From Comamonas flocculans (GTDB lineage Bacteria > Pseudomonadota > Gammaproteobacteria > Burkholderiales > Burkholderiaceae_C), in contig NZ_CP042344.1 of the NCBI RefSeq assembly GCF_007954405.1, positions 248,001 through 312,000 on the forward strand: a stretch of DNA of 64,000 nt. Direction: 5' to 3'. This document shows positions 35,005-52,520 of this stretch, piece after piece. Within the stretch, counting starts at the first letter, position 1. The number at the start of each line of letters is the position of its first letter. Under the pieces are notes generated by a model. The model was given only the letters and a program-made list of their open reading frames with translations. It was not told where the DNA came from and did not search any database. Made by a program: the position numbers and the translations under genes.

Positions 35005-35220
35005 TGACCCGTCCTGCCAGAGGTTGACACCTTTCCCCACCTGGAAAGGAAAGTCTCATGGAATCAAGGCGCAAGCGCACGCAGCGGGACTACACGCTGG
35101 CTTTTAAGCTGTCAGTAGTCGAGCAGGTAGAAAAAGGCGAGCTGACATACAAGCAGGCCGCCCAGGACAAGTACGGCATCCAGGGTCGCTCCACGGTCCT
35201 GGCGTGGCTGCGCAAGCATG
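35005..35220 (+). mobile_element. IS3-family left-end fragment with OrfA stub
   Basis: Begins TGACCCGTCCTGCCAGAGGT and carries the first 55 codons of an IS3-type OrfA from the ATG at 35058 (MESRRKRTQRDYTLAFKLSV, GIQGRSTVLAWLRKH). Homology stops at about 35217, where a toxin gene fragment starts, so the element is cut. The same end is found at 4044-4107. The HTH part of OrfA remains; OrfB and the right end are absent here. The frame stays open to 35690, through the downstream antitoxin (see findings). Confidence 0.78.
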
Positions 35221-35361
35221 ATGTACGTCGCCAAGTTCGAGGAAGCTGTCTACGTCCTGCACTGCTTCCAGAAGAAGACCCGGGCGACCAGCCAACGGGA
35301 CAAGGACATTGCCACGGCGCGCTACCGCGCCGTGGTCAACGCGAGAAAGGCCAAGCCATGA
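35221..35361 (+). pseudogene. C-terminal remnant of a Gp49/HigB-like toxin
   Basis: 46 residues: MYVAKFEEAVYVLHCFQKKT, then RATSQRDKDIATARYRAVVN. This is the C-terminal part of the phage-derived Gp49-like (HigB2) RelE-fold toxins, whose full length is around 110 residues. The N-terminal half has been replaced by the IS3 fragment. The stop overlaps the antitoxin ATG (ATGA), the normal arrangement. Confidence 0.7.
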
Positions 35362-35690
35362 AGATCGACACCGAAATCCGCCATGTCACGAAGCCGGGCG
35401 CGAACCTGTTCCTGGAGTTGGGTTTCCCGGCTGACGAAGCCAGACGGCTACAGGAGGCGTCGCGCCAGCAGATCAACGACACGCGGTTGCTCAAGGAACA
35501 ACTGATGTCGGAGCTGGCCGAGTGGATCGCGCAGCATCACCTGAAGCAGGCCGAGGCTGCGGAAATCCTGATGGTTTCGCGTCCACGCGTGTCCGATGTG
35601 GTGAACAAGAAGACGGCGAAGTTCACCATCGACACGCTGGTGGAAATGCTCAGTCGGGTCGGCAAGACGGTTCGACTGGCGGTTGGCTGA
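35358..35690 (+). CDS. XRE-family antitoxin (HigA2-like)
   Basis: 110 residues. LKEQLMSELAEWIAQHHLKQ leads into an HTH: AEAAEILMVSRPRVSDVVNKKTAKFTIDTL. It is typical of the HTH_37-type antitoxins paired with Gp49-like toxins. It is intact, though its toxin is cut. It may persist as a free regulator or as an anti-addiction factor (inference). Confidence 0.82.
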   Translation: MKIDTEIRHVTKPGANLFLELGFPADEARRLQEASRQQINDTRLLKEQLMSELAEWIAQHHLKQAEAAEILMVSRPRVSDVVNKKTAKFTIDTLVEMLSRVGKTVRLAVG

Positions 35691-35853
35691 CACAAGTGGG
35701 CAATGCGCTGGAAGCAGGCATCGGTAGCCTCCCGCACATGCTGGAGGCGTTCATCGCCGGCGACCGAGGATTCAGGAAAGGAGCGGCACCCAGGGCCGCG
35801 CCACCGAAACAGCCCTGACGATGGGGACGCATCCGCTGTCACCCACGACGAAA
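35691..35853. other. Intergenic, no gene recognised
   Basis: An open stretch in frame 2 reads QVGNALEAGIGSLPHMLEAF and further, and could be a gene tail, but no start or family is visible. Otherwise featureless up to the hairpin at 35854. Confidence 0.3.
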
Positions 35854-35873
35854 GCGCAGCCCACGGGCTGCGC
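35854..35873. terminator. Strong hairpin between convergent genes
   Basis: GCGCAGCCC-AC-GGGCTGCGC, a 9-bp perfect stem flanked by AAA and TTCGCTTTG. It lies between the antitoxin (plus) and the lipoprotein (minus), so it is a likely bidirectional terminator. Confidence 0.6.
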
Positions 35874-35949
35874 CTTCGCTTTGAGAGGTGGATTGCGACA
35901 AGTCGGGGGCCATGACGACCATGCGATCTTGCCCGCCGTGAAGGCCGGC

Positions 35950-36336
35950 TCAGTTGCCGTTGCCGGTCGCCGAGGTCGCGGCCTTGTCGGCCGCTTCCTT
36001 GGCCGCCCGGGCAGCATCGCTCGCCGCTTCCCTGGTGGCGTCGGCGGCGTCGCGTGCCGCGTCGGCGGTGGCGTGCGCGGCAACCTTGCTCTTCTCTACC
36101 GCCGCATGGCCGGCAGCCTTGGCCGCGTCACCGGCCGCCGAAGCGGCCTGGGCAGCCGCATCCGCCGCGTCCCTGGCCGCGTCCTTGGCCGCATCCACCG
36201 CGGCGTCGGAGCTGGACGGGGCCGGTGCCACGGCGGGCGCAGCCGGAGCCGGTGCGGGGGCGGGTTCCTGTTTGTCCCCACAGGCGACCAGCGCGCCAGC
36301 AGCCACGAGCGAAGCCAATACGACGGAATATTTCAT
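35950..36336 (-). CDS. Ala-rich amphipathic lipoprotein
   Basis: 128 residues. Signal peptide with lipobox (MKYSVVLASLVAAGALVACG, Cys 19), a Pro/Ala linker, then about 85 residues of Ala/Asp/Lys-rich helix. The helix has an 11-residue-like pattern (DAAKDAARDAADAAAQAASA), reminiscent of apolipoprotein or LEA-type repeats. It should be an elongated surface helix anchored to a membrane. A GGGAGA ribosome-binding site precedes the ATG. Function unknown. Confidence 0.75.
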   Translation of the reverse strand: MKYSVVLASLVAAGALVACGDKQEPAPAPAPAAPAVAPAPSSSDAAVDAAKDAARDAADAAAQAASAAGDAAKAAGHAAVEKSKVAAHATADAARDAADATREAASDAARAAKEAADKAATSATGNGN

Positions 36337-36495
36337 GATCGATCTCCCAAAAGAGGCAGGTAATTGCTTGCCCCGCCCGCGGCATTTCCTGCTGCCGCGG
36401 GGCGGGTTTCATGCGCTGCCAAAACGGCCATAGCACAAGACGAACCCATTGTAGTGAGCCACGTCAATCCATATTTACCCGAATGCAAATCAAAG

Positions 36496-36999
36496 TTACA
36501 AACCCAGGACCGAGGACGCAAAGCCCGGCGTGGAGCGATTGAGCAGCCATTCATCGAGCTGCTCGCGCAGCAGGACGAGGCGCTCGGGCTCACGCGTGGC
36601 CACACCCTGGCTGCGCACCGGGTCGATGCGGTGCATGGCCCAGGCCCTGGTCCAGCACAAACTGGGCAAATCCTGTGCCTGCGCCGCCCTGGCCTTGCGC
36701 GCCGTGACCAGGTGCTCCCAGCGCACGCGCCACTGCACGAAGCGCGGGTGCAGCCGCAGCACCGCGTCGTAGTGGCCCGCCAGCAGCACCAGGCGCCGCC
36801 GGCCGCCGGCCCAGGCCTGCAGGCTCTCCACCACGGCGCGCTCGCCCAGAGGCCAGTCGGCAAAGTCGGCATCGCACAGCAGCAGCTCGGGCCAGCCTTC
36901 GGCAGCGGCCTGATGCAGGGCGTCGCGCACCAACTGGCGGAAAGCCTCGCGCCCATCAAAGCGGCCGGTGGCCAGGCTGTCGGCGGGAATCTGCTCCAT
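36496..36999 (-). CDS. Conserved protein of unknown function
   Basis: 167 residues from MEQIPADSLATGRFDGREAF. It has an alpha/beta look (ELLLCDADFADWPLGERAVV and RRLVLLAGHYDAVLRLHPRF) and a basic centre, with no signal or membrane segment. I recall similar proteins divergent from FKBP-type genes in Comamonadaceae but no function. The start is supported by the divergent gene 52 bases away; the frame is open further upstream. Confidence 0.6.
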   Translation of the reverse strand: MEQIPADSLATGRFDGREAFRQLVRDALHQAAAEGWPELLLCDADFADWPLGERAVVESLQAWAGGRRRLVLLAGHYDAVLRLHPRFVQWRVRWEHLVTARKARAAQAQDLPSLCWTRAWAMHRIDPVRSQGVATREPERLVLLREQLDEWLLNRSTPGFASSVLGL

Positions 37000-37051
37000 G
37001 TTCGGCCTCCTCGGGTGCGCGGCGCCCTCGCTGCTGCGACAATTCTGCGCC

Positions 37052-37549
37052 ATGGACATCAATGAACACTGCGTGGTCGCCCTCACCTGGGTCTTGCAGG
37101 ACACGCTGGGCGAAGAGCTGGACGTGCTGCACGAGCCTGCCGAATTCCTCGTCGGCGGCGACGACCTGCTCGCACGCATCGAGCAGGCCCTGCAGGGCCA
37201 CGGACCCGGCGCAGAACTGGCGCTGCACCTGGAGCCCGAGGAAGCCTTCGGCGACTACGACGAGAAGCTGCTCTTTCTGGAGCCGCGCGCAGCCTTCGCG
37301 CCCGGGATCGAAGAAGGCATGCTGATCGAGGCGGCCAGCCTGCCCGCCGACCTCGCCACGCGGCTGCCTGCAGAGCACCTGTACACCGTCGCCCAGATCT
37401 ACCCCGAGCACGTGGTGCTCGACGGCAACCATCCGCTGGCCGGCATGGCGCTGCGCATCCGGCTCAAGGTGCACGCGGTGCGCGCAGCCAGCGCCGAAGA
37501 AACCGAGCGGCGCAGTGCCGGCACCGGCTTCTTCAAGCTGCAAGACTGA
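37052..37549 (+). CDS. FKBP-type peptidyl-prolyl isomerase (SlyD-like)
   Basis: 165 residues. The FKBP half-barrel is split by an insert-in-flap domain, as in SlyD. MDINEHCVVALTWVLQDTLG, then the PEFLVGGDDLLARIEQAL core; the flap LEPEEAFGDYDEKLLFLE; and DGNHPLAGMALRIRLKVHAV at the end. It lacks the metal-binding His-rich tail of E. coli SlyD. Catalyses proline isomerisation and acts as a chaperone in the cytoplasm (family). Confidence 0.88.
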   Translation: MDINEHCVVALTWVLQDTLGEELDVLHEPAEFLVGGDDLLARIEQALQGHGPGAELALHLEPEEAFGDYDEKLLFLEPRAAFAPGIEEGMLIEAASLPADLATRLPAEHLYTVAQIYPEHVVLDGNHPLAGMALRIRLKVHAVRAASAEETERRSAGTGFFKLQD

Positions 37550-37561
37550 GCACCGGCGCGC

Positions 37562-38056
37562 TCACAGGCGCGAGATCTGCCCCTGGTAGTAGCGCACGCG
37601 GTCGCCGCGGCGCAGGTCACCCACGCCGGGCACCTCGAACACCTGCTGGCTGCCGTCGTCAAAGCGCACCGTCACGTAGTAGCGCCCGCTGCTGCCGCGG
37701 TTGGCCTGCCCCTCGATCGCGTTGCCGGCCACCGCGCCGCCGATCACGCCGGCTATCGTCGCCAACGCGCGGCCCGAGCCGCCACCGACTTGGTTGCCAA
37801 GCACCCCGCCCACCACACCGCCGGCCACGGCGCCCGCGCCGCTGGTGCCGCGGTCGACACGCTCGGACTCGATGCCGAGCACCGTGCCATAGCGCGTGCC
37901 ACGGGGGTCGGACTGGTAGTGCTGCACCTGGGCGGCCTGGCCGCGATAGTGCGGCGCATTGCCGTATTCCCTGGGCTGGTTGCCGGCGCAGCCGGCCAGC
38001 ACACCCGCCGCCAGCACAGCCAGCACCGTCGCGCCGTGTCGAAAAACCTGTTTCAT
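37562..38056 (-). CDS. Glycine-zipper outer-membrane lipoprotein (SlyB-like)
   Basis: 164 residues. Signal peptide with lipobox LAGC (VLAVLAAGVLAGCAGNQPRE), then VLGIESERVDRG and a long glycine zipper (GAGAVAGGVVGGVLGNQVGG, TIAGVIGGAVAGNAIEG). The C-terminal domain VTVRFDDGSQQVFEV is typical of SlyB/PcP. SlyB-type proteins stabilise outer-membrane complexes under stress. It is convergent with the FKBP gene. Confidence 0.85.
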   Translation of the reverse strand: MKQVFRHGATVLAVLAAGVLAGCAGNQPREYGNAPHYRGQAAQVQHYQSDPRGTRYGTVLGIESERVDRGTSGAGAVAGGVVGGVLGNQVGGGSGRALATIAGVIGGAVAGNAIEGQANRGSSGRYYVTVRFDDGSQQVFEVPGVGDLRRGDRVRYYQGQISRL

Positions 38057-38100
38057 CTTTGAATCCTTTCTTGCAAATTGGCACCCTGGGCGGGGCCGAC

Positions 38101-38547
38101 CTATTGCCGACCGGTGGAGCCGTAACCACTGCGACCCCGGTCGGAGGCCACAAATTCCTCAACCTCGCGAAACTGCGCCTGCACCACCGGCACGATCACC
38201 AGTTGCGCAAGCCGCTCCATGGGCTGCATGGTGAAGGCCGTCGCCGAGCGGTTCCAGCAGCTGACCATCAGCTCGCCCTGGTAATCGCTGTCGATCAGGC
38301 CCACCAGATTGCCCAGCACGATGCCGTGCTTGTGGCCCAGTCCGGAGCGGGGCAAGATCAGTGCCGCAAAGCCCGGGTCCTTCAAATGGATGGCCATGCC
38401 CGTGGGCACCAGCTCCCACTGTCCGGGCACCAGCTCCAGCGGCTGCTCCAGGCAGGCGCGCAAGTCCAGCCCCGCGCTGCCCGCCGTGGCGTAGCCCGGC
38501 ATCTGGCTGCGCAGGCGCTCATCGAGAATCTTCAGATCGACCAGCAT
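38101..38547 (-). CDS. dut: dUTP diphosphatase
   Basis: Hydrolyses dUTP to dUMP, keeping uracil out of DNA. 148 residues, homotrimeric type. All five motifs are present: [10 protein letters not shown] (1), [13 protein letters not shown] (2), [17 protein letters not shown] (3), [13 protein letters not shown] (4) and [11 protein letters not shown] (5, P-loop-like tail). It lies near coaBC, a common bacterial pairing. Confidence 0.96.
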
Positions 38548-38580
38548 CGGCCCCTCTTCACCTTCCTGCGCCGCGGCGCC

Positions 38581-38961
38581 TCAACGCCCACGCCCCTTGG
38601 CGCGGATGGCCGCCGACACCAGCCAGGCCAGTGCGAACACCACCGCCGCCGGCAGCGCCACGGGTGCGAACGTCGTCACCAGCGCCACCACCACGCCGAT
38701 CAGCACCACCCTGAAAACCAGCGCCGGCCAAACCGGCGGGACTGCCAGCGGGCGCGCCGCCTTGCCGCGCGGCGCCGCGCCCGCATCCCTGCCCTGCGCC
38801 CGCCGCGGCGCATCGGTGCGCGCCGCACGCCGGCCAGCCGACGCAGGAGCGGCCGTGGCGCCGGGCGCGGCTACCGACGCCCCCGGCACGCTCGCGCTCA
38901 GCCGCTCCACGTAGCGGGCGAAATCGCCGTCGGGCGGCCCTTCGGCACCTGGCAGGCTCAT
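38581..38961 (-). CDS. Membrane protein of unknown function between coaBC and dut
   Basis: 126 residues. A disordered, basic Ala/Pro/Arg-rich N-terminal half is followed by two adjacent hydrophobic helices (VWPALVFRVVLIGVVVALVT and ALPAAVVFALAWLVSAAI). Its ATG overlaps the coaBC stop (ATGA). No family recognised. Confidence 0.65.
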   Translation of the reverse strand: MSLPGAEGPPDGDFARYVERLSASVPGASVAAPGATAAPASAGRRAARTDAPRRAQGRDAGAAPRGKAARPLAVPPVWPALVFRVVLIGVVVALVTTFAPVALPAAVVFALAWLVSAAIRAKGRGR

Positions 38962-40205
38962 GGCATGTCCTCTCGCGGCAAGCCCGCGCGTGCTGCGCCC
39001 AGGCGGCGCGCCAGCTCGGCCACCAGTTGGCGCGCCAGAGCGTGCTTGCTGGCCCGCGGCAGCTCCTGCACACCGGCCTCATCGACCAGCAGCAGGGCGT
39101 TGTCGTCCTGCCCGAAGGTGGCCGGGCCGATATTGCCCACCAGCAGCGGCACGCCCTTGCGCTGGCGCTTGGCACGCGCATGTTCCAGCAGGTTCTCGCT
39201 CTCGGCGGCAAAGCCCACGCAGTAGAGCGCTCCCTCCTGCGCGCGGCGGCTGGCCGCCACCGTCGCGAGGATGTCCGGGTTCTCGATGAAGCCCAGCTGG
39301 GGCAGCTGCCCCGTGCCGTCCTTCTTGATCTTGTGCGCGGCGACGGCCGCCGGACGCCAGTCCGCCACCGCCGCCGTGGCGATGAAGACGCTGGCGTGGG
39401 GCACGCACTGCTCCACTGCGCCCAGCATGTCCTGCGCCGACTCCACGTCCAGGCGCTGCACGCCGCGCGGCGTCGCCAGCGCCACCGGCCCGGCCACCAG
39501 CGTCACCTGCGCGCCGGCTTCGCGCGCCGCCCGGGCCAGCGCAAAACCCATCTTGCCGCTGGAGCGGTTGGTGATGCCGCGCACCGGGTCGATCGCCTCG
39601 AAGGTCGGGCCGGCGGTGATCAAGACCTGTTCGCCCGCCAGCAGCCTGGGGCTGAAGAAGGCCTGCAGCTCTTCCACGATTTCAGCCGGCTCCAGCATGC
39701 GCCCGTCGCCGGTCTCGCCGCAGGCCTGCGAGCCGCAGCCCACGCCCAGCGACACCGCGCCGTCCGCCACCACCTGCGCCAGGTTGCGCTGCGTGGCCGG
39801 GTGCAGCCACATCTCGCGGTTCATCGCCGGGGCCAGCAGCAGCGGCACGCGCTGCAGCGGCCGCGCCACGCACAGCAGGCTCAGCAGCTCGTCGCAGCGC
39901 CCCTGCGCCAGCCGCGCGATGAAGTCCGCGCTGCAAGGGGCAATCACGATGGCGTGCGCGTCGCGGCTCAGGTTGATGTGCGCCATCGCATTGGGCTCGC
40001 GCGCATCCCACTGGGAGGTGTACACCGCCCGCCCGCTGAGCGCCTGCAGCGTGGTCGCGGTGATGAAGTGCTCGGCCGCCTCCGTCATCACCACCTGCAC
40101 CGTGCAGCCCGCCTTGCCCAGCAGGCGCACCAGCTCCGCCGCCTTGTAGCAGGCCACGCCGCCCGACAGGCCCAGCACGATGTGTTTTCCGGATAAAGGG
40201 GTCAT
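38958..40205 (-). CDS. coaBC: Phosphopantothenoylcysteine decarboxylase/synthetase
   Basis: Bifunctional coenzyme A enzyme. 415 residues. The N-terminal flavin decarboxylase (CoaC) has GLSGGVACYKAAELVRLL, the catalytic region DAHAIVIAPCSADFIARLAQ, and PAMNREMWLHPATQRNL. The C-terminal synthetase (CoaB) has ITAGPTFEAIDPVRGITNRS, GKMGFALARAAREAGA and KIKKDG (catalytic Lys). The start at 40205 fits. It is first gene of a coaBC - membrane protein - dut cluster. Confidence 0.96.
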   Translation of the reverse strand: MTPLSGKHIVLGLSGGVACYKAAELVRLLGKAGCTVQVVMTEAAEHFITATTLQALSGRAVYTSQWDAREPNAMAHINLSRDAHAIVIAPCSADFIARLAQGRCDELLSLLCVARPLQRVPLLLAPAMNREMWLHPATQRNLAQVVADGAVSLGVGCGSQACGETGDGRMLEPAEIVEELQAFFSPRLLAGEQVLITAGPTFEAIDPVRGITNRSSGKMGFALARAAREAGAQVTLVAGPVALATPRGVQRLDVESAQDMLGAVEQCVPHASVFIATAAVADWRPAAVAAHKIKKDGTGQLPQLGFIENPDILATVAASRRAQEGALYCVGFAAESENLLEHARAKRQRKGVPLLVGNIGPATFGQDDNALLLVDEAGVQELPRASKHALARQLVAELARRLGAARAGLPREDMP

Positions 40206-40352
40206 GCGGGCAATTTAGCAGAATGCGCCGGCGCGGCGCTGGTCTGCGAGGTGTCGTGTCCAGGCTATGCAGGCGCTGGCTGCGCAAAGAGCCGGTTGAC
40301 GATCCTCACGACCCCGCCGCGCACCTTCCGCCCCCATTCAGGCAAGGTAGTC

Positions 40353-40370
40353 GTTTATACTTGTATAAAC
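40353..40370 (+). promoter_or_regulatory. Probable MazE operator
   Basis: Perfect inverted repeat GTTTATAC-TT-GTATAAAC, ending 35 bases before the antitoxin start. It is AT-rich and covers a likely -10 region, as expected for autorepression by the antitoxin. Confidence 0.6.
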
Positions 40371-40405
40371 ACCGTTCCCTTGTTGATCCCGCGTTGGAGG
40401 CCCAC

Positions 40406-40660
40406 ATGACCGAAGTCCTGCTCGATATCAAATACTGGGGCAACAGCCTGGGCGTGCGCCTTCCCGCCAAGGTGGCCCGTGCAGCCCGCCTGAATGCCGA
40501 GCAGCGCGTGCGCATGCTGGTGGAGAACGGGCGCGTGGTCATCGAGCCGGTGCGGGATGCGCAACCTACCCTGGGTGAACGCCTGGCCCGCTTTGATGCC
40601 CAACGCCACGGTGGCGAAGCCATGCCTGACGCCGGTCGGCTGGGCGCCGAGCAGTGGTAA
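40406..40660 (+). CDS. mazE: MazE-type antitoxin (AbrB fold)
   Basis: 84 residues. The N-terminal swapped-hairpin domain reads LLDIKYWGNSLGVRLPAKVA, with RVRMLVENGRVVIEPV, typical of MazE/SpoVT-AbrB. The acidic/charged tail (LGERLARFDAQRHGGEAMPD) would wrap MazF. The ATG at 40406 follows the operator; upstream in-frame sequence has no family match. Confidence 0.88.
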   Translation: MTEVLLDIKYWGNSLGVRLPAKVARAARLNAEQRVRMLVENGRVVIEPVRDAQPTLGERLARFDAQRHGGEAMPDAGRLGAEQW

Positions 40661-41034
40661 GCCGCACCCAGAAAACCTGGGTGCCAGACCGGCAGGACAT
40701 CATTTGGATCGACTGCAACCCCCAGGCCGGTCACGAAATGCGCGACATCCACCCCTTTGTCGTGCTTTCTCCCCGCGCCTTCAATGACCGCACCTCGCTG
40801 GTGCTGGGCCTGCCCATGACCACCGCCGCCTACAACGCGGACAACCCCTTTGCCGTGGCCGCAGGCACAGCCAGTGGGCGCAAGGCCGGTGCTACCAGCT
40901 ACGTGTTGTGCCACCAACCCAAATCGTTCGACTGGCGGGCGCGCGGCGCCACGCCCCATCCCATGCGCCGGGCCACTCCAGAAGTCTTTTCGCAGGTGTG
41001 CCTGATACTGAACCAGATCGTGCAGCTGGCCTGA
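40654..41034 (+). CDS. mazF: MazF-type endoribonuclease toxin
   Basis: 126 residues from a GTG overlapping the mazE stop by 7 bases. VPDRQDIIWIDCNPQAGHEM and HPFVVLSPRAFNDRTSLVLG match the MazF/PemK SH3-like barrel; the conserved GHE-R region and VLCHQPKSFDWRARGA are in place. It looks complete and should cleave mRNA at short specific sites. One of few unbroken toxins in the island. Confidence 0.88.
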   Translation: MVSRTQKTWVPDRQDIIWIDCNPQAGHEMRDIHPFVVLSPRAFNDRTSLVLGLPMTTAAYNADNPFAVAAGTASGRKAGATSYVLCHQPKSFDWRARGATPHPMRRATPEVFSQVCLILNQIVQLA

Positions 41035-41098
41035 TTCGAATCCCCCCGCCAACACCGATCTGCCTTTTTGGCCAAGGCGCCTGAGCGCGCAACGGCCG

Positions 41099-41227
41099 TT
41101 ACCTGATGGCGATTCGCAATTCTGGCTGTTCACCCTGTACGACAAGGACGAAATGGCTGACCTGAGCCCCGACGAGAAAAAGGTGCTCAAGAACATGCTG
41201 AAAACCGAACTGGAGGCACGTCGATGA
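41099..41227 (+). pseudogene. C-terminal remnant of a RelE-type toxin
   Basis: The last 42 or so residues are recognisable: DSQFWLFTLYDKDEMADLSP, then DEKKVLKNMLKTELEARR. This is the tail of the RelE/HigB-like toxins that precede MKKRNLF-type antitoxins. No upstream catalytic part exists; the frame is open back to 41033 but unrelated. The stop overlaps the antitoxin ATG (ATGA). Confidence 0.7.
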
Positions 41228-41398
41228 AAAAACGGAACCTGTTTGCAGAGCTGACCGAAGGCTTCGAGGCCCTTTCGGGCGAGCGCCAAGGCAAGCAAAC
41301 GCTACGCACGCACGAGGTCCAGGTGAAGGCCGCGCCCGATGTCACAGCTGAATCGCCCCGGTTTCCGAGGAGGCTCAAATCTTTGAGAGGATTGAGCC

Positions 41399-45488: not shown

Positions 45489-45558
45489 AAGACTATCCCT
45501 CACAAAAGTTGAAACAGGAGACACTCCGCTGGGTGCGTCGCCGCACGCCCTGTTGGCA

Positions 45559-45574: not shown

Positions 45575-45757
45575 GGCCAAACCAGCCGGCATGCGCATCA
45601 TAGGGCAGGCGCGGGCGGCGGCGATTGGTACAAACGTCAAGTTTTGTACGCCGCGCCGCCGCTTTGTCGCAACAAGGGGGTGTCGCGCCCTCGCGTGTCG
45701 CGAAATTTTGGCGACAATGGGTCTTCCGCCCCGCCTTGGGCTGCCCTGGTCTTGTGC

Positions 45758-46315
45758 ATGCACCCTTCCCTTACCTTCCCCTGCGCGGTCAGCCAGAACA
45801 CGGCCGCGGCGCTGACCGGGCGCAGCGTGCGCACCTGGCAGCGCCGCGTGGAGCAGGGGCTGGTGGAGCGCCTGGGCGAAGGCCGCACGCTGGTGCCCTT
45901 CGATGCGCTGGTGCCAGAGCTGGCGGTGGCCATTGCCCCGGCCGACCTGCCGCTGCTGGCGCGTGCCGACGGGGGCGACGCCACCGCCCAGGCGGAGCTG
46001 GGCGCGCTGCTGGCGCTGGAGGCGCTGGCGGGCGCGGCCGGCACGCACGCGCAGGCAGACAGGGGCCGCAGCGCCGGCGCGGCGGCGGCGCTGTACTTTC
46101 TGCAGGCCGGCGCCGACCAAGGCAGCGCGGACGCGATGCATTGGCTGGCGCTGCTGCATGCGGCGGGGCTGGCTGGCGGGGGCAACGGTCACGAGGGCGA
46201 CGGCGGCAAGGCGCTGGCGCTGATGTGGCTGGCGCGCGCGGCGGCACATGGGCACGTGATTGCGCGGGCGCAGTTGGCGGGCTTGGTGCCGGGAGACGGG
46301 GTGTTGAAGGCGTGA
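45758..46315 (+). CDS. Sel1-repeat-like protein
   Basis: 185 residues. The N-terminus has an HTH-like segment (AVSQNTAAALTGRSVRTWQR, RVEQGLVERLGEGRTLVPFD). Two or three Sel1/TPR-like helical repeats follow (AAAALYFLQAGADQGSADAM, HWLALLHAAG, ALMWLARAAAHGHVIARAQL). A protein-binding or regulatory role is likely; it is divergent from pilA, with which it shares the upstream region. No signal peptide seen. Confidence 0.65.
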   Translation: MHPSLTFPCAVSQNTAAALTGRSVRTWQRRVEQGLVERLGEGRTLVPFDALVPELAVAIAPADLPLLARADGGDATAQAELGALLALEALAGAAGTHAQADRGRSAGAAAALYFLQAGADQGSADAMHWLALLHAAGLAGGGNGHEGDGGKALALMWLARAAAHGHVIARAQLAGLVPGDGVLKA

Positions 46316-46378
46316 TCAGCCCGGCCCGGTGAAATTGAAATGGGCGGTGGCGGGTGGTGGCGCTTGCCCCCACCCCTG

Positions 46379-46399
46379 CCCTCCCCCAAAGGGGGAGGG
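46379..46399. repeat. GC-rich palindrome (CCCTCCCCC type)
   Basis: CCCTCCCCC-AAA-GGGGGAGGG, 9-bp perfect arms. It lies 45 bases before the breakpoint of the truncated higB at 46445. Same type as 56208-56228. Confidence 0.7.
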
Positions 46400-46444
46400 A
46401 GAAGGCCCGGCGGAATTTCGCGGCGGGGGCCTCTTTGCAAGGCG

Positions 46445-46519
46445 GCGCACATCAAATTCGCAGGCACTCATGCCGAGTACGACCGAATTGACGCCCATAC
46501 CGTGGAGATCAAACCATGA
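46445..46519 (+). pseudogene. C-terminal remnant of a HigB-type toxin
   Basis: Only the last 24 residues remain: AHIKFAGTHAEYDRIDAHTV, EIKP. This is the invariant tail of the HigB mRNA interferases that pair with the longer HigA antitoxins. The stop overlaps the antitoxin ATG (ATGA). Confidence 0.72.
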
Positions 46520-46905
46520 GCCAGCACACCTTGCATCCCATTCGCACCGAGGACGATTACCGGGCAGCGTTGAAAACGGCGGAAAGTTTCTTCGATGCCC
46601 CTGATGAATGTGATCCCGCCAGTGAAGAAGGTGCCTGGTTCGAGGCGCTCCTCACCCTCATTGAAGCTTGGGAACGCAAGCACTACCCGCTGAAGCCGCT
46701 GGACCCCGTTGATGCGATCAAATTCCACATGGACCAGGCAGGCCTGACGGTGGCCGACATGGCACCCTGGATCGGCCCGCGCCACCGGGTCTATGAGATT
46801 TTGGGGGGCAAGCGCCCGCTCACGCTGCACATGATTCGCAGGCTTTTGGCGCTGGGCATTCCCGCCCAGACACTGGTGGGCAAGCCGGAGCCTGCGATGG
46901 GTTGA
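46516..46905 (+). CDS. higA: HigA-type antitoxin (long form)
   Basis: 129 residues. A helical N-terminal domain (MSQHTLHPIRTEDDYRAALK, AESFFDAPDECDPASEEGAW) neutralises the toxin. The C-terminal HTH reads AIKFHMDQAGLTVADMAPWI, HRVYEILGGKRPLTLHMIRR. Complete, ending GKPEPAMG; its toxin is reduced to a tail. The last 50 bases recur as fragments at 47641-47690 and 48387-48413. Confidence 0.88.
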   Translation: MSQHTLHPIRTEDDYRAALKTAESFFDAPDECDPASEEGAWFEALLTLIEAWERKHYPLKPLDPVDAIKFHMDQAGLTVADMAPWIGPRHRVYEILGGKRPLTLHMIRRLLALGIPAQTLVGKPEPAMG

Positions 46906-46958
46906 ATGGGCAAGGGCATGCCGACTGCTGCAAGAGCAAACTGCGTGCACCGGATTGT

Positions 46959-46977
46959 TTTACCGAATACCGGTAAA
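46959..46977 (+). promoter_or_regulatory. Probable HigA operator
   Basis: TTTACCG-AATAC-CGGTAAA, a perfect 7-bp inverted repeat ending 22 bases before the higB start. Likely autorepression site of the complete higBA module. Confidence 0.6.
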
Positions 46978-46999
46978 CGTGATAGAGTACTCTCCATTC

Positions 47000-47281
47000 A
47001 TGCCCATTGTTTCCTTCAGGTGCCCAGACACTCAGCGCTTGTTCACCAGCGGCAAGACACGGCGTTTTTCCAGCTTCCAGTCTGTGGCAGAGCGCAAGCT
47101 GGCACAACTGGATGCCGCCGTGACACTGGATTTTTTGCGCAGTCCGCCAGGCAATCGCCTTGAGCTGCTGACGGGCGACCGCCAAGGGCAGCACAGCATC
47201 CGCATCAACGGCCAGTGGCGCGTGTGCTTTGTCTGGACGGACAAAGGGCCCATGAATGTGGAAATCGTCGACTATCACTGA
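47000..47281 (+). CDS. higB: HigB-type mRNA interferase toxin
   Basis: 93 residues, full length. MPIVSFRCPDTQRLFTSGKT, RRFSSFQSVAERKLAQLDAA, SPPGNRLELLTGDRQGQHSI, RINGQWRVCFVW and the end VEIVDYH match the short HigB/GraT family. The reverse-fold RelE catalytic residues (Arg, His of GQHSIRIN) are present. This intact copy is the yardstick for the truncated ones at 28057 and 52400. The start ATG 47000 fits the family; the frame is open upstream. Confidence 0.92.
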   Translation: MPIVSFRCPDTQRLFTSGKTRRFSSFQSVAERKLAQLDAAVTLDFLRSPPGNRLELLTGDRQGQHSIRINGQWRVCFVWTDKGPMNVEIVDYH

Positions 47282-47306
47282 CGACAACGCCAGCCAGGAG
47301 AAAGAC

Positions 47307-47615
47307 ATGGTCAAAAACGGCATGCGCCCCATCCACCCGGGCGAAATATTGCGTGAGGACTACCTCAAACCTCTGCAGCTCAGCGCCAATGCGCTGGCCG
47401 GGCAACTGCACGTACCTGCATCGCGCATCAACGACATCGTGCTGGGGCGCCGGGGCATTACCGCCGATACGGCCTTGCGCCTGTGCCGCTTTTTTGGGGG
47501 TGACGCACGGTCATGGCTCAATCTGCAAACGGCTTACGATTTGCGCGTGGCCGAGCTTGACGGGGCAGTGCAACAGGCCGTGCAGACGGTGCACCCCATG
47601 CTGCATCCGACCTGA
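47307..47615 (+). CDS. higA: HigA-type antitoxin
   Basis: 102 residues: RPIHPGEILREDYLKPLQLS, the HTH ANALAGQLHVPASRINDIVL, GRRGITADTALRLCRFFGGD, and SWLNLQTAYDL. The AGGAG and ATG at 47307 follow the toxin stop by 25 bases. With higB it forms an apparently functional HigBA module. Confidence 0.92.
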   Translation: MVKNGMRPIHPGEILREDYLKPLQLSANALAGQLHVPASRINDIVLGRRGITADTALRLCRFFGGDARSWLNLQTAYDLRVAELDGAVQQAVQTVHPMLHPT

Positions 47616-47621
47616 ATATCG

Positions 47622-47681
47622 TTGATGCCAGGCATTCGCCCGCAGGCACTGGCAGGCAAGCCGAAGCCTGCGATGGGTTGA
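47622..47681 (+). pseudogene. Tail fragment of a HigA antitoxin
   Basis: The 19 codons LMPGIRPQALAGKPKPAMG plus stop match the C-terminus of the long HigA at 46516-46905 (GIPAQTLVGKPEPAMG), including the non-coding bases that follow (GAATGGGCAAG). It is a duplicated gene end with nothing before it. Confidence 0.65.
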
Positions 47682-47782
47682 ATGGGCAAGAAAGGGTGCG
47701 TGAGCAGTTGGCGGGGTTGATGCCGAGGGGGAACGCCAGACAACACGGCCGACAGGCAGCAGCAGGCCAACGCGAACTTCGG

Positions 47783-48202
47783 CTATCGCACCTCGGCCAG
47801 CAGGTTGGGGTGCTTGTCCAGCAAGCGCATCAGCAGCACGGTGGACTTGTGTGGCTGGGTCTTGCCGCGTTCATATTCGCTGAAAGCCGATACACCGCCG
47901 CCAAACAGACGTCCCGCCTCGGCTTGCGACAAGCCCAGTTTTTTGCGCGCGGCGCGCAGCGCCAGGGCTTGCCGTTGCCTGGCCTCCTGGCCAGCGGCCT
48001 CCACGGCCGCGCTCATGCGGGCGGCGCTGTCGCCCTGCAAGTCGTATTCGATTTCGCCGCAGGCCGGGCAATGCCAGCCAGTGACGCCCTTCACGGAATA
48101 GGGCACGCCCATGATCTCGCCATGCACGTCCTTGGTGGTGTGCACCAGGGCCGTGCCGTCGTCGCATTGCAGGCAGTACCGGTTCTTTGCGTCGGGGGTC
48201 AT
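47783..48202 (-). CDS. mqsA: MqsA-type antitoxin
   Basis: 139 residues. A zinc-finger N-terminal domain (YCLQCDDG and WHCPACGEIEYD, four Cys) and a C-terminal HTH (ARKKLGLSQAEAGRLFGGGV, SAFSEYERGKTQPHKSTVLL, LMRLLDKHPNLL). Matches MqsA, which binds MqsR and represses stress genes. Intact; its toxin just upstream is shortened. The start follows the mqsR stop by one base. Confidence 0.88.
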   Translation of the reverse strand: MTPDAKNRYCLQCDDGTALVHTTKDVHGEIMGVPYSVKGVTGWHCPACGEIEYDLQGDSAARMSAAVEAAGQEARQRQALALRAARKKLGLSQAEAGRLFGGGVSAFSEYERGKTQPHKSTVLLMRLLDKHPNLLAEVR

Positions 48203-48203
48203 G

Positions 48204-48350
48204 TCAAAGCTCCTTGAACTGGAGCACCACCGCGCCATCCGCGCGAAAGGTGACTTTGATGTAGGCCATGCAGCCATTGGGACAAGGTGCGTGGTACACG
48301 TCTTGCCACAGGGTATGGTCGGCATGGGTCGTCATGCTTTTGTAGAACAT
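48204..48350 (-). pseudogene. mqsR: N-terminally truncated MqsR toxin
   Basis: MFYKSMTTHADHTLWQDVYH, then AYIKVTFRADGAVVLQFKEL aligns with the second half of E. coli MqsR (DFYKSMTTYSDHTIWQDVY...FKEK). About 50 N-terminal residues are gone; a few more matching codons (QTLAVVLGLERR) extend to about 48386, where the sequence switches to the HigA-tail motif. The catalytic Tyr/Lys region is largely kept but the fold cannot be complete. Confidence 0.75.
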
Positions 48351-48429
48351 GCGCCGCTCCAAACCAAGCACTACGGCCAATGTCTGCGCCTGCAATGGGC
48401 TGAATGGGCAAGAGAAGGTGCAATTTCCT

Positions 48430-48750
48430 TCAAAGCACCGCTTCCAGCCCCTTGCGCTCGATGATGTCCAGCAATTTTTGCGACGGTCCGCTGGGGCGCT
48501 TGTCGCCCACTTCCCATTTGCGGACGGTGGACGTGCTGGTGTTCAATACGCTGGCCAGCACGGCCTGGCTCAGGCGCAGCCGTTCACGCAGCGCCTTGAC
48601 CTTGGCGGCATCGTAGTCTTGCACCGGCTTCAGACACAGCACGTCGTACTTCTGCATCTTGCGCTTGTCGATGAAGCCCAGACGGTACAGATCGTGTGCG
48701 CCTTCATGCACGGCTTCCATGATGCGGCTCTTGGCCTTGGGTGTGGTCAT
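48430..48750 (-). CDS. HTH antitoxin (NadS/HigA2-like)
   Basis: 106 residues. The C-terminal XRE helix-turn-helix reads AKVKALRERLRLSQAVLASV, LNTSTSTVRKWEVGDKRPSG, PSQKLLDIIERKGLEAVL. The N-terminal helices (HEGAHDLYRLGFIDKRKMQK) contact the toxin. It follows its toxin on the minus strand with 65 bases between, the common toxin-first order. Confidence 0.85.
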   Translation of the reverse strand: MTTPKAKSRIMEAVHEGAHDLYRLGFIDKRKMQKYDVLCLKPVQDYDAAKVKALRERLRLSQAVLASVLNTSTSTVRKWEVGDKRPSGPSQKLLDIIERKGLEAVL

Positions 48751-48815
48751 TGGCAGATCTCCTGCAAAGTGCCGCCAGCAGCGGCGTCATCCAATTGCGC
48801 GTCCATGCGCTCCAA

Positions 48816-49118
48816 TCAGTCTGCAGCGTAGTCCTTCAATGCTTGCAGTTCATCATCGCTGATGTTGTCGCGCTCGTTCTTCTCGAAGCCGAATACGAAA
48901 AACCAGCGACTGCCCTTGTTGGTGGCAAGCAGCGTGCGCACACCGCCGCGCTTGCCGCGCCCAGCCAGTCCGACGCGCTTCTTCACCACGCCGCCGCCAA
49001 GGTCGGCATCGATCAGGCCAGCAGCCATCTCCTGAACGGCCTTGCACAAGGCGGCATCGGCAAGCTCCGTCTTGCGCATCCATCGCTGGAAATAACGGGT
49101 CTTGAATACGCGCTCCAT
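48816..49118 (-). CDS. RelE/ParE-fold toxin (HigB2/RelE-like)
   Basis: 100 residues. MERVFKTRYFQRWMRKTELA, KKRVGLAGRGKRGGVRTLLA and KGSRWFFVFGFEKNERDNIS match the COG4737 RelE-like toxins, with the Arg/Lys-rich active face. It is complete. A palindrome lies just upstream of its start, so it should be autoregulated. Confidence 0.86.
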   Translation of the reverse strand: MERVFKTRYFQRWMRKTELADAALCKAVQEMAAGLIDADLGGGVVKKRVGLAGRGKRGGVRTLLATNKGSRWFFVFGFEKNERDNISDDELQALKDYAAD

Positions 49119-49128
49119 GGGTTGAGAT

Positions 49129-49147
49129 TATGCCACCAAGTGGCATA
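49129..49147 (-). promoter_or_regulatory. Operator palindrome of the relE/HTH pair
   Basis: TATGCCAC-CAA-GTGGCATA, a perfect 8-bp inverted repeat, 11 bases upstream of the toxin start. Confidence 0.65.
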
Positions 49148-49287
49148 GATTACTTCCCGCCATTCCCCCGATGACTGGCCCGATCACTCGCGCCGGGCAA
49201 AGGGGCGTGCTGACGATGTACCGAGGCCAGCTCGATACCCCATCCATCTGAATGGCTCCAGCATCTGACGCAGGGCACCCATTCGTC

Positions 49288-49611
49288 ATCACGCCCCTTT
49301 GCCCGACGAAGTGCATCACGCTTGCGCAGCTGCTGTTCGGCATCCAGGCGCTCACGGCCAGCCGACGCAAGGACATGCTGGACCGCGCCCTGAACGAATT
49401 GCTGGAACTCTTCAAGGAGCGGGTGCTGCCCTTTGATGCAGATGCCGCGCGCCACTACGCCGACCTGGCCGTGACGGCCGGAAATGGCGGGCGCGGCTTT
49501 CCGACGCCAGACGGCTACGTCGCGGCCATTGCGGCGTCGCGGGGTTTCATCGTGGCTTCACGCGACGCTGCGCCCTACGACGCGGCTGGTGTCACTGTCA
49601 TCAACCCCTGG
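49288..49611 (+). pseudogene. N-terminally truncated VapC/FitB-type PIN toxin
   Basis: CITLAQLLFGIQALTASRRK, DMLDRALNELLELF, LPFDADAARHYADLAVTAGN, then FPTPDGYVAAIAASRGFIVA, SRDAAPY and INPW are the last two thirds of a PIN-domain RNase. The N-terminal strand with the first catalytic Asp (LDTNVIS-type) is missing, and no vapB precedes it. The frame runs on into the 65-bp repeat, adding a junk tail to 49914. Confidence 0.72.
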
Positions 49612-49640
49612 ACAGGCGCATGGAGCCAGGGTGATTGCCG

Positions 49641-49705
49641 GCCCCTCACCCAGCCTCTCCCCACAGGGGAGAGGAGCCGACAGAGCGACCGCTGGCAAGC
49701 TTCAG
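49641..49705. repeat. 65-bp direct repeat, left copy
   Basis: Contains GCCCCTCACCCAGCCTCTCC, the palindrome CCTCTCCCC-ACA-GGGGAGAGG and GACCGCTGGCAAGCTTCAG. It matches 50342-50406 at 60 of 65 positions, same orientation. The pair brackets the phd-relE module. Confidence 0.88.
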
Positions 49706-49808
49706 TCCGAGGTGTGGGGGCGAAAGATGAAAAGTGCTTTCAAAGGCACCCTGAAAAGATCATTCAAACGCACAATCAAGATTTGGACTTACACCAGCAA
49801 GGCAATTC

Positions 49809-50057
49809 ATGGCACACAAGATACTCGCACCGATGGCCGCCAGCGTCACCGAGCTCAAGCGCGACCCCATGGGTACGGTGCTTGCCGCCGAGGGGAGTGC
49901 CGTGGCTATTCTGAATCGCAATGAACCGGCGTTCTATTGCGTGCCTGCCAAGGCATTTGAGGCCTTGATGGAGAAGCTGGAAGATCTGGAGCTCAACGCC
50001 ATTGCCAACGCACGCGCTGACGACAAGGAAGTGGCGGTGACTCTGGATGCCCTTTGA
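49809..50057 (+). CDS. Phd/YefM-type antitoxin
   Basis: 82 residues. AHKILAPMAASVTELKRDPM, GTVLAAEGSAVAILNRNEPA, FYCVPAKAFEALMEKLEDLE match the Phd/YefM fold; the C-terminal tail (NAIANARADDKEVAVTLDAL) would bind the RelE toxin. It overlaps the toxin gene by 11 bases. Confidence 0.9.
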   Translation: MAHKILAPMAASVTELKRDPMGTVLAAEGSAVAILNRNEPAFYCVPAKAFEALMEKLEDLELNAIANARADDKEVAVTLDAL

Positions 50058-50328
50058 ACTGCGCTTCAAGCGGCTTGCGCTGGACGAATGGCAGCGGCTG
50101 GATGGGTCGGTTCGCGCCCAATTCAAGAAAGAGCTTGCAGAGCGCCTGCAACATCCGCGAATGCCGTCGGCCAAATTGTCAGGGCATGCCGACCGCTACA
50201 AGATCAAGCTGCGTGCGCTGGGCTACCGCTTGGTTTATGAGGTGCGGGATACGGAGCTGGTAGTGGTAGTCATCGCAGTGGGCAAGCGTGACGGCAATGC
50301 GGTTTATGCCGTGGCGGCGGGGCGTTAG
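50047..50328 (+). CDS. relE: RelE-type mRNA interferase toxin
   Basis: 93 residues. MPFELRFKRLALDEWQRLDG, RAQFKKELAERLQHPRMPSA, RYKIKLRALGYRLVYEVRDT, and VVVVIAVGKRDGNAVY match RelE throughout, with the conserved Lys/Arg catalytic residues. Complete. Confidence 0.9.
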   Translation: MPFELRFKRLALDEWQRLDGSVRAQFKKELAERLQHPRMPSAKLSGHADRYKIKLRALGYRLVYEVRDTELVVVVIAVGKRDGNAVYAVAAGR

Positions 50329-50341
50329 AGCAAGGCTGCAA

Positions 50342-50406
50342 GCCCCTCACCCAGCCTCTCCCCAAAGGGGAGAGGAGCCGGCAGGGCGGCCGCTGGCAGG
50401 CTTCAG
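50342..50406. repeat. 65-bp direct repeat, right copy
   Basis: Near-identical to 49641-49705 (five differences, four of them A to G). It contains the palindrome CCTCTCCCC-AAA-GGGGAGAGG. It begins 13 bases after the relE stop. Confidence 0.88.
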
Positions 50407-50545
50407 GCTGACCGAAGGTGAGATAAATGGATGGCGGGCGGTGCGATAAATCCGGGATTTGATGGCAGGTCGTGGCACATGGTGGGCGGGATCGTGCAAC
50501 GCTCTTGCAGCTACGGTAAATGCAGAATGTGGCGGGATTGTGCCT

Positions 50546-51022
50546 TCAGTCGGGCAGCAACCAGTCCTGCAAGATGTCGATGACGGCCTGTTCGTCGGCG
50601 GGGGCGAGGTGGCCGGATTCGGGGTCTTGGAAGATCAGGCCGCGGCGGGGCATCTTCCAGGTGCCGAATTCGTGGAAGGTGGCGTAGTGCTGGGCGAAGC
50701 CGACCCGCACGCTGGTGGCGTCGGCGTCCCAGTTGAGGTGGCCGAGCATGTCGCCATACCGGTCGAGGATGCGGCCGGTGCCGGGCTTGCCCATCGCCTC
50801 GGCGGCCGGGGTGCCCGGGTAGGGGTAGCTCTCACGCGTGGATTCGGCCCACTGTGCCCATTTGCGGCCGTCGGGGTCAGTCTCGGTCTTGAAGCGGGCG
50901 CGGATGCGGTTCTCCATTTCCTGGCCGATGGCCTGCATGGCTTCGGTGAGGTCGCCCAAGCGGGCCTGCAGGTCGGCCAGGTACTGGCGAAAGCCGCTGT
51001 CTTCTACGTCGATGGTCAGCAT
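50546..51022 (-). CDS. Mu-like phage virion morphogenesis protein
   Basis: 158 residues. IGQEMENRIRARFKTETDPD, GRKWAQWAESTRESY and ATFHEFGTWKMPRRGLIFQD match the phage virion morphogenesis family (Mu gpG-like tail/head completion). It is probably whole. With the head protein upstream it represents a stranded piece of a Mu-like prophage; no other phage genes are seen. Confidence 0.8.
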   Translation of the reverse strand: MLTIDVEDSGFRQYLADLQARLGDLTEAMQAIGQEMENRIRARFKTETDPDGRKWAQWAESTRESYPYPGTPAAEAMGKPGTGRILDRYGDMLGHLNWDADATSVRVGFAQHYATFHEFGTWKMPRRGLIFQDPESGHLAPADEQAVIDILQDWLLPD

Positions 51023-51155
51023 GGGCGCTCTTCCCTACAATGGGAACCGCACACAGGGAGCGAAAGCGGCTGGCGCCTGGGCCGATAGCCGCCTGAAAAC
51101 TGACCCCGATGTCCAGTCAGTCGCGGGAGCTTGATCCCCTGTGTGCACTCCAACA

Positions 51156-52082
51156 TCACTCCGCCTGGTAGATCAAATCACCGATCCGTAGGGCGTTCAT
51201 CTTGCCCCTTTCGCGGTTGATGATGTTCCACACTACATCACCGTTCGGCAGCTCTCGGACGATCACCAAGATGTCGTATTTTGCCCCCTTGAACAGCTTG
51301 ATGTAACGCTTGCGCAGCGTGCCATCGTCGTAGGCGGTGCGCCAGATTTCATCGGGGCGCATCAGCGTGGGCAGCACGAAGTCAGCGTAGCGCTCGCGTG
51401 CGTCCAGGCGCTTTTCAACAACGTGGCGCAGCAGCTCGTCCATCAGGATCACGTCGCCCGCCGGGGTGCGCACGCTGCGGGCGGCGCCCACCGGCACGCC
51501 CAGCGTGGCGCGCAGTTGCGACACGGCTTCGTCGATCGATTCGGCACGTGCCAGCAGCTCGGGCGCCTGCATGCGCGGCTGCAGCTCGCGCAGGTCGGGC
51601 AGCTCCAGCGTCTTCCAGGTCGGCTGGTCGGGCTTCTCGCGTGCGACCTGGGGCGGCTGCAGCCCCTCTTTGAGCGCAGCGGCGGCCAGATTGGCCGCGG
51701 CGGCCTTGAGCTTGGCCTGCTCGACGGCCGCCAGCGCCTGCTGGCGCGCTATGCCTGCGTTGTAGCCAAAGCCCGGGTCCACACCGGCGGGCGTCTGCGT
51801 GATCTCGCCGGTGCGCCGGTTGATGTGGGCGATGGTCTCGAACGGGGGCGCGGTGGTGTTCAGCGGCGAACCATCGGGCGCGCGGCCCGCGGCGTATTCG
51901 CGCCGGTTCATGGACACCACCCGGCAGCGGCAGCGCCAGCCGTTGGGCGGCCAGTGCATTAGCCAGAACGCATCATCGACGGGCAGCGTCAGGTTGTGCC
52001 AGGCGCGGTGCGCGGGGCGCACGCGATCATCGTCCTTGGTGATGTAGCGCAGGAACGGGTGGGTTTTCCGGGTGGCCTGCAT
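51156..52082 (-). pseudogene. N-truncated Mu-like minor head protein with C-terminal nuclease-like domain
   Basis: 308 residues from an internal ATG. The first part, YITKDDDRVRPAHRAWHNLT...PPNGWRCRCRV, is the end of the Mu gp30/SPP1 gp7 minor head family, whose first half is missing. After a linker, the C-terminal domain (MDELLRHVVEKRLDARERYA, IWRTAYDDGTLRKRYIKLFK, VVWNIINRERGKMNALRIGD) resembles the PBECR (barnase/EndoU/colicin/RelE-like) domains seen fused to phage head proteins. The gene is cut by the higA module at about 52085. Confidence 0.68.
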
Positions 52083-52396
52083 CAGGCGGTGGTGCGCGGG
52101 CAGAAAACGCGGATTCTGGGTGCGATTTTTTCCTGCATGGTGCGCGCCGTCACACGCATGTCGTACTCTGTCTGCAGGTTCATCCAGAAGCACGGCTCCA
52201 TGTCAAAGAACAAGCCCAGTCGCAAGGCGGTATCGGCAGTGATCGGGCGACGGCCGTGCACCAGTTCGCTGATCCTGCTGGGTGAGACGTCAATATCCGC
52301 CGCAAGCTGGCGGGCGGTGATGCCCATGGGCAGCATGTATTCCTCCAGCAGGATTTCGCCAGGGTGGATTTCATCGAGCAGTTCGGTCATTTTCAT
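52082..52396 (-). CDS. higA: HigA-type antitoxin
   Basis: 104 residues. DEIHPGEILLEEYMLPMGIT, ARQLAADIDVSPSRISELVH, GRRPITADTALRLGLFFDME, FWMNLQTEYDMRV. Complete, but its toxin partner upstream is only a tail. Its stop lies at the junction with the phage fragment. Confidence 0.88.
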   Translation of the reverse strand: MKMTELLDEIHPGEILLEEYMLPMGITARQLAADIDVSPSRISELVHGRRPITADTALRLGLFFDMEPCFWMNLQTEYDMRVTARTMQEKIAPRIRVFCPRTTA

Positions 52397-52399
52397 CTC

Positions 52400-52520
52400 C
52401 TAGTGGTAGTCCACGATTTCGACCCGATGCACACCGTCGTCGTGCCACGCAAAGCAGACTCGCCACTGGCCGTTGATGCGGATGCTGTGCTGCCCCTGAC
52501 GATCACCTTTCAAGGCTTCA
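52400..52520 (-). pseudogene. higB: C-terminal remnant of HigB
   Basis: [40 protein letters not shown] then stop. This matches the last 40 residues of the intact HigB at 47000. Upstream of VEALKGD the sequence is the 3' end of hisD in a different frame, so the toxin's first half is absent and the break lies inside the hisD end. Confidence 0.75.

Follow-up and report, generated by a model that had tools for sequence, protein, structure and literature searches.

The closest described counterparts of the locus considered here are the orphan antitoxins of type II and type IV toxin–antitoxin (TA) systems, i.e., antitoxin genes without a functional partner, that have been surveyed in Klebsiella and Escherichia coli. 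The Klebsiella pneumoniae complex is reported to hold 2253 orphan antitoxins, with a median of nine per strain (PMC7192599), and in E. coli 176 of 290 antitoxin groups are described as orphan, alongside many orphan toxins, which sets that species apart from the samples examined here (PMC10790755). Degraded pairs are named as one source of orphans (PMC7192599), and both anti-addiction and regulation have been proposed as roles for them (PMC7192599, PMC10790755). Decay of chromosomal TA systems by deletion and nonsense changes has also been described (PMC7167474). Here, we analyse positions 35005 to 52520, and some neighbouring sequence, of a 64,000-nucleotide window of Comamonas flocculans DNA (positions 248001 to 312000 of a single 3.33-Mb contig; genome G000), in which toxin genes have repeatedly been cut while their antitoxins stand complete. 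The likeness to the Klebsiella and E. coli orphans is the antitoxin gene without a functional partner; those surveys count orphans across strains, whereas here the toxin remnants still adjoin their antitoxins and are clustered at one locus. With the decaying chromosomal systems, the locus shares loss by deletion or nonsense change, but here several unrelated families are involved and the side of the toxin that was kept is recorded. A literature search for truncated toxins with intact antitoxins found no paper. The window adds a dense new case to a process already known.

An earlier note on this DNA had claimed that at least nine toxin genes are cut or broken and that six of the cut toxins still have a complete antitoxin. 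Profile searches, tblastn and translation checks confirm all nine lesions, and the six antitoxins (starting at 27742, 35358, 43191, 46516, 47783 and 52082) each adjoin a cut toxin and match their homologues over nearly the full length. The toxin remnants and their antitoxins are as follows.

27742–28044, minus strand: HigA-type antitoxin, complete, 100 amino acids (aa), orphan; PF01381 HTH_3, E 1.2e-10.
28057–28220, minus strand: HigB remnant, N-terminal (antitoxin-distal) end gone; PF05015 positions 40–91 of 91, matched at G000:C1:276060-276218.
35058–35216, plus strand: helix-turn-helix (HTH) fragment of 55 aa, transposase-like by eye, in place of the Gp49 toxin start; HTH_28 E 1.5e-4 and HTH_Tnp_1 E 0.078, both below cut-off.
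35217–35361, plus strand: Gp49-like toxin remnant, 47 aa (last residues), from translation.
35358–35690, plus strand: HTH_37 antitoxin, complete, 110 aa, orphan; PF13744 E 5.6e-16.
41094–41227, plus strand: RelE-type toxin remnant, about 43 aa; a 44-aa piece alone gives a weak PF06296 match, E 0.044.
41224–42858, plus strand: RelE-partner antitoxin, split by an insertion sequence (IS), interruption at about 41348/42658.
43191–43682, plus strand: XRE-type antitoxin of an AbiEii-type toxin, complete, 163 aa, orphan; PF01381 E 4.6e-9, TIGR03070-like below cut-off.
43679–43981, plus strand: AbiEii remnant, first 101 aa of about 218; PF08843 positions 13–69 of 238.
46445–46519, plus strand: HigB (PF09907-type) remnant, about 22 aa; tblastn query positions 76–98, E 7e-9.
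46516–46905, plus strand: YgjM-type antitoxin, complete, 129 aa, orphan; recognised by homologues, with no Pfam match of its own.
47783–48202, minus strand: MqsA antitoxin, complete, 139 aa, start at 48202, orphan; PF15731 E 1.3e-30.
48204–48389, minus strand: MqsR remnant; PF15723 positions 37–95 of 95.
49309–49605, plus strand: VapC/PIN remnant (49288 in the earlier note), N-terminal part gone; PF01850 positions 35–118 of 120.
52082–52396, minus strand: HigA-type antitoxin, complete, 104 aa, orphan; PF01381 E 3e-8.
52400–52520, minus strand: HigB remnant overlapping the hisD 3' end; PF05015 positions 50–91 of 91.
63851–64000, plus strand: start of an AbiEii-type toxin, broken by a stop and a frame change; a short continuation past the window, then cut.

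The toxin end lying away from the antitoxin is missing in all six orphan modules. Most cuts had been said to remove the N terminus, which holds for the five toxin-first modules (two HigBA, the Gp49-type, the YgjNM-type and MqsRA) but not for the antitoxin-first AbiE-type module, where the toxin C terminus was lost; loss of the antitoxin-distal end is the better rule, and the RelE tail at 41099 obeys it too. In place of the C-terminal part of AbiEii 43679 stands other sequence (glycosyltransferase-like by eye); a relative's locus, L167, has the full toxin. By translation, all remnants but AbiEii 63851 read open as far as the junction. Retention of the antitoxin, correct for the six, takes another form at the RelE tail, whose partner is present but split at about 41349–42657 by an IS that carries an integrase-core transposase (PF00665) and is found, nearly identical, at two further places in the genome. 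No VapB was found ahead of the VapC remnant, and no antitoxin was seen beside AbiEii 63851, whose piece past the window edge matches PF08843 (E 2.3e-11). Comparison with relatives, which the earlier note had proposed, recovers intact versions of all six orphan modules. A 72% homologue of HigA 27742 adjoins intact HigB in genome G149; a full Gp49 toxin precedes an antitoxin 90% identical to 35358 at locus L138; antitoxin 43191 has homologues 87 to 91% identical; homologues of the YgjM-type antitoxin, at most 67% identical, adjoin intact HigB_toxin; 83 to 84% homologues of HigA 52082 adjoin intact HigB; and the MqsRA relatives are only 39 to 46% identical. In each of the six modules, a complete antitoxin homologous to paired ones stands beside a cut partner toxin.

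Sequencing or assembly errors can mimic broken toxins, and the stop and frame change of AbiEii 63851, taken alone, could be such an error, yet that toxin is also cut further on. The comparison set for the genus comprised nine genomes (this strain included). The second genome used for lesion sharing, G005, has the same cut AbiEii 43679, HigB 46445, MqsR and HigB 52400 (modules 43191, 46516, 47783 and 52082). Because the same lesions recur in G005, these four are not assembly errors; moreover, all six lesions are junctions to other sequence rather than single-base changes, in one 3.33-Mb contig, and the chance that errors explain the pattern is negligible. At the corresponding places, G005 is without the Gp49-type module (34998–35954 is missing) and without the 27742 module, and these two lesions are seen in one genome only. 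The RelE-partner antitoxin is uninterrupted in G005 and in Comamonas badia, each of which has a cut RelE, and the G005 copy of the RelE tail aligns to positions 73–112 of intact RelE homologues. C. badia carries Gp49 and RelE tails of its own, which are shorter, and its Gp49-type antitoxin is frameshifted. At a different place in G005 (locus L130, G005:C1:2452000-2456000), another HigB beside a HigA starts to match only at about the residue where a HigB remnant of the window does (profile positions 39–91).

Identity between G000 and G005 varies by piece, being 94% over 35955–41348, 98.6% over 42658–42864, 99.6% over 43094–44715, 99.4% over 45363–49725 and 99.0% over 52073–55375. The segment 49726–52072 (phd-parE and phage genes) is missing from G005 here, and there is an 85% match to 50408–52081 elsewhere in that genome. 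The step from 94% (32611–41348) to 99.0–99.6% (shared pieces of 43094–55375, hisD included) resembles a recombined tract. It is possible, though on the whole doubtful, that already truncated modules were imported jointly by recombination, in few transfers rather than by repeated local loss. The tract of high identity holds four of the six orphans, as such import would have it. Against it, no two lesions share a junction and the toxins fall into different families; import would shift the place of the losses and leave them separate.

The fate of such modules in relatives was surveyed by searching 150 genomes of the family with each antitoxin and applying one rule to all strong loci, a complete antitoxin being a match over at least 72% of the length with no early stop. 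Over five families, 18 of 87 complete antitoxins had no intact toxin: MqsA 2 of 13, HigA 7 of 27 (two uncertain, L089 and L090), YgjM 2 of 25, Gp49-type 2 of 6 and AbiE-type 5 of 16 (one resting on a single stop), with the Gp49-type and AbiE-type counts covering stronger loci only (L137–L144 and L167–L183). Loci whose antitoxin match was short or had an early stop were left out (MqsA L048–L050; YgjM L098, L114 and L115; HigA L085; Gp49-type L144; AbiE-type L183), as were YgjM L119 (no match) and, at contig edges, HigA L075 and Gp49-type L142. For example, at Gp49-type L137, where the antitoxin is 94% identical, other sequence (recombinase-like by eye) stands where the toxin would start, and at L141 only the toxin tail is kept. 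In the toxin searches, a toxin without an antitoxin was found at 0 of 89 assessable best-scoring loci (30 each for HigB, HigB_toxin and MqsR, less MqsR L271 at a contig edge), with HigB L212 and MqsR L273 and L275 counted as paired though themselves stop-bearing; best-scoring toxin loci lean towards well-preserved pairs. The asymmetry between orphan antitoxins and lone toxins (18/87 vs 0/89; Fisher P 1e-6) is what one would expect if loss of the antitoxin first is lethal. Partial toxin matches kept only the antitoxin-proximal end in about 11 cases and only the distal end in 1, a rough tally that excludes weak matches and may include some divergent complete toxins.

Among RelE-partner antitoxins, 31 of the 77 loci that could be assessed had no intact toxin (30 with L365 taken as intact; three edge loci excluded). 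Orphans themselves decay. Partial HigB_toxin matches had a complete antitoxin in 2 of 6 cases, the other 4 having lost the antitoxin too. When one RelE-partner antitoxin was searched against 190 genomes, the ten loci with at least 59% identity comprised four intact pairs, three orphans and three with both genes broken, this strain's own among the last.

We consider it probable that the DNA from the coaBC region to hisD, with the pilin gene pilA in its midst, forms a variable locus that gathers and sheds TA modules together with phage and IS debris, and that its modules decay by the ordinary path, the orphans in the window being without present function. Modules would arrive in the locus and be broken by deletions, IS and phage insertions. 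Where the antitoxin was broken first, the cell would die and the lesion would not be recovered; the surviving lesions would be deletions or replacements that enter from the antitoxin-far side and destroy the toxin. This would leave the antitoxin with the near end of the toxin, an orphan that would be harmless and free to be lost. We infer both the order of events and that this host would not survive losing the antitoxin first. Such an expected decay path was one of two readings offered in the earlier note, and it is the better supported, with orphans at 18/87, lone toxins at 0/89 and some orphans themselves decaying. Four intact TA pairs, found by profile searches, lie inside the same stretch as the cut modules.

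40406–41034, plus strand: mazE-mazF, intact; PF04014 E 1.8e-9 and PF02452 E 1.6e-21.
46955–47615, plus strand: higB-higA, intact; PF05015 E 4.2e-16 and PF01381 E 1.2e-5.
48816–49118 (RelE) and 48430–48750 (XRE antitoxin), minus strand: intact pair; PF06296 E 1.4e-42 and PF01381 E 2.1e-7.
49809–50328, plus strand: phd-parE, intact, with no counterpart at this position in G005; PF02604 E 2.9e-6 (below cut-off) and PF05016 E 1.1e-11.

The alternative offered was that the orphans are kept by selection, either as anti-addiction modules that counter plasmid- or phage-borne toxins akin to the lost ones or because they regulate other genes. A ratio of nonsynonymous to synonymous substitution rates (dN/dS) well below 1 had been proposed as a sign of retained function, and 52082 and 43191, the two antitoxins of the window for which close relatives exist, do give about 0.05 to 0.17. 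However, the HigB tail gives 0.07 against 0.09 for its antitoxin with the same relative, and the AbiEii remnant 0.13 against 0.12. These low values prove nothing because the measured dead toxin remnants are equally constrained, and dN/dS of the window orphans was rejected as proof of function. The cuts look recent, and the values appear to reflect the time before them. Changes counted on branches, covering four of the window's six antitoxins and three toxin remnants, were few and showed no clear difference. Comparing G000 with G005 for change after truncation was set aside as the genomes are too similar, and 27742 has no G005 counterpart at that place.

The dN/dS check, uninformative in the window, leans towards retained function in the RelE-partner family. 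There, an outgroup served to place each change either on the orphan or on the intact relative nearest to it, and the numbers of nonsynonymous and synonymous changes (N/S) were compared, with a neutral expectation of about 2.8 (about 230 N and 82 S sites). For 22 definite orphans (L323, which has no outgroup, eight small-lesion loci and L365 excluded), antitoxin N/S was 0.47, compared with 0.41 for the intact partners and 0.49 for intact controls. At 20 loci with a usable toxin remnant (ends of high-scoring segment pairs trimmed; L365, L323 and loci with fewer than 8 aligned toxin codons excluded), toxin N/S was 1.05 vs 0.73 for partners and 0.68 for controls, a ratio to control of 1.55 (95% 1.22–1.91).

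Several results weigh against passive decay as the whole account. At the same 20 loci, antitoxin N/S was 0.50 vs 0.48 for partners and 0.49 for controls (ratio to control 1.03, 95% 0.77–1.37), which passive decay alone does not predict, and the ratio of the two ratios is 1.5 (95% 1.14–2.0; bootstrap P 0.002). In addition, the toxin is broken in 5 of the 9 modules with a complete antitoxin between 35005 and 52520, compared with 18/87 in relatives (P 0.02), in a stretch that was chosen post hoc. This survey of intact pairs covers that stretch of the window, and module 27742, lying outside it, is excluded from the 5/9. Set against the 40% rate of the RelE-partner set, the same 5/9 gives P 0.27. 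The unusual density claimed earlier is mildly supported for the stretch, but genomes with about as many orphans are nothing out of the ordinary, as the published median of nine per strain in the Klebsiella pneumoniae complex shows (PMC7192599), and the pattern is ordinary in kind.

The RelE-partner result suggests that some orphan antitoxins stay useful: the toxin remnants are relaxed and the antitoxins are not, and orphan antitoxins, at 31/77 of the loci, are no more diverged than paired ones (mean identity to the query 0.746, n=30, vs 0.756, n=46; P 0.52). The RelE-partner loci were, however, picked for antitoxin similarity (the best 80 of 502), so sampling bias is possible; many come from metagenome assemblies, in which a frameshift can be erroneous, and at 8 of the 20 the lesions are all small. 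Samples that depend less on antitoxin quality show the antitoxin lost as well in three of six RelE-type and four of six HigB_toxin broken loci, and the one RelE-partner antitoxin of this strain is itself broken by an IS. We put forward tentatively, as a minority possibility, that toxin-first RelE-type antitoxins may remain under full purifying selection after toxin death in many Burkholderiales and related lineages, the antitoxin-only locus being a selected end state, useful against incoming relatives or recruited as a regulator, rather than a mere stage on the way to deletion, and the window a dense collection of such loci in the making.

Toxin-first modules would suit such selection, since an antitoxin promoter can lie inside the toxin gene and a cut toxin start may leave expression in place. 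In E. coli, mqsA is reported to be driven by two promoters within mqsR (PMC6918082), so that cutting a toxin would not necessarily silence its antitoxin. A promoter consensus scan of 46300–52600 gave no clear excess (2 vs 1.2 in shuffles). That the toxin end is kept for its promoter was rejected as a general rule, some kept tails being 12 to 18 codons, short for a promoter. In the RelE-type loci L294–L373, synonymous divergence is 0.28–0.36 at toxin codons 97–112 and antitoxin codons 1–32, compared with 0.39–0.50 elsewhere (20 non-independent pairs), as if a promoter or translation signal lay at the toxin end and antitoxin start.

Anti-addiction modules were reportedly described by Saavedra De Bast in 2008. 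The likeness here is that a chromosomal antitoxin, HigA 52082, is related to a plasmid-borne pair; the plasmid is from another genus, and neutralisation of its toxin is putative. Plasmid searches with the six antitoxins found relatives above 80% identity for three, in 1, 1 and 2 records, and none above that level for the other three. HigA 52082 has an 82% relative on a 20-kb Alcaligenes faecalis plasmid, the only small plasmid among these records, with an annotated RelE/ParE-family toxin adjoining; antitoxin 43191 has an 83% relative on a Variovorax replicon of 2.48 Mb that carries an annotated AbiEii; and antitoxin 35358 has an 87% relative on two 2-Mb Caballeronia replicons (antitoxin match only). 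The pairs on other replicons whose antitoxins are close to 52082 and 43191 would be in keeping with anti-addiction. With such relatives for three of six antitoxins only, measured toxin remnants as constrained as the antitoxins, and some short tails in the RelE-type set, selection is an unlikely explanation for the orphans of the window, and decay by the ordinary path is the reading that we prefer for them.

The stretch is flanked by coaBC-type genes (38958–40205) on one side and hisD (52510–53865, PF00815) on the other, with pilA in its middle (44979–45563, minus strand; a type IV pilin, PF00114 E 1.4e-19). The downstream part of this pilin gene differs between G000 and G005, the gene start being common to both. 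A Mu protein F-like phage gene (51156–52193) adjoins orphan HigA 52082; its C-terminal part matches PBECR2, a RelE-like nuclease domain of phages. A VapB-like antitoxin gene (53826–54122) overlaps the hisD start, with no VapC seen; it may be a further orphan and is absent from the earlier list. At the cut edge of vapC, 49191–49308 lies between 26-bp inverted repeats (92%) and resembles a miniature inverted-repeat transposable element. Direct repeats of 75 bp at 49636 and 50337 border part of 49726–52072. A 25-bp repeat occurs at 46890–46914, 47666–47690 and 48388–48412, the only three copies genome-wide (at most 3 mismatches); the first takes in the end of the YgjM-type antitoxin gene and the third lies on the mqsR cut edge. 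A chromosomal integron cassette array was considered and set aside, given only three repeat copies, one of which includes that gene end. The genes of the stretch lie on both strands, which also counts against an integron array, as judged without an attC model.

The locus offers a natural case of how TA systems die, with the antitoxin-far end of the toxin going first and no lone toxin in the samples examined. It also indicates how orphan antitoxins are to be read, in that a low dN/dS means little unless the adjoining dead toxin serves as a clock. When it does, selection appears to preserve one antitoxin family after the loss of its toxin, and anti-addiction would then be testable on existing genomes.

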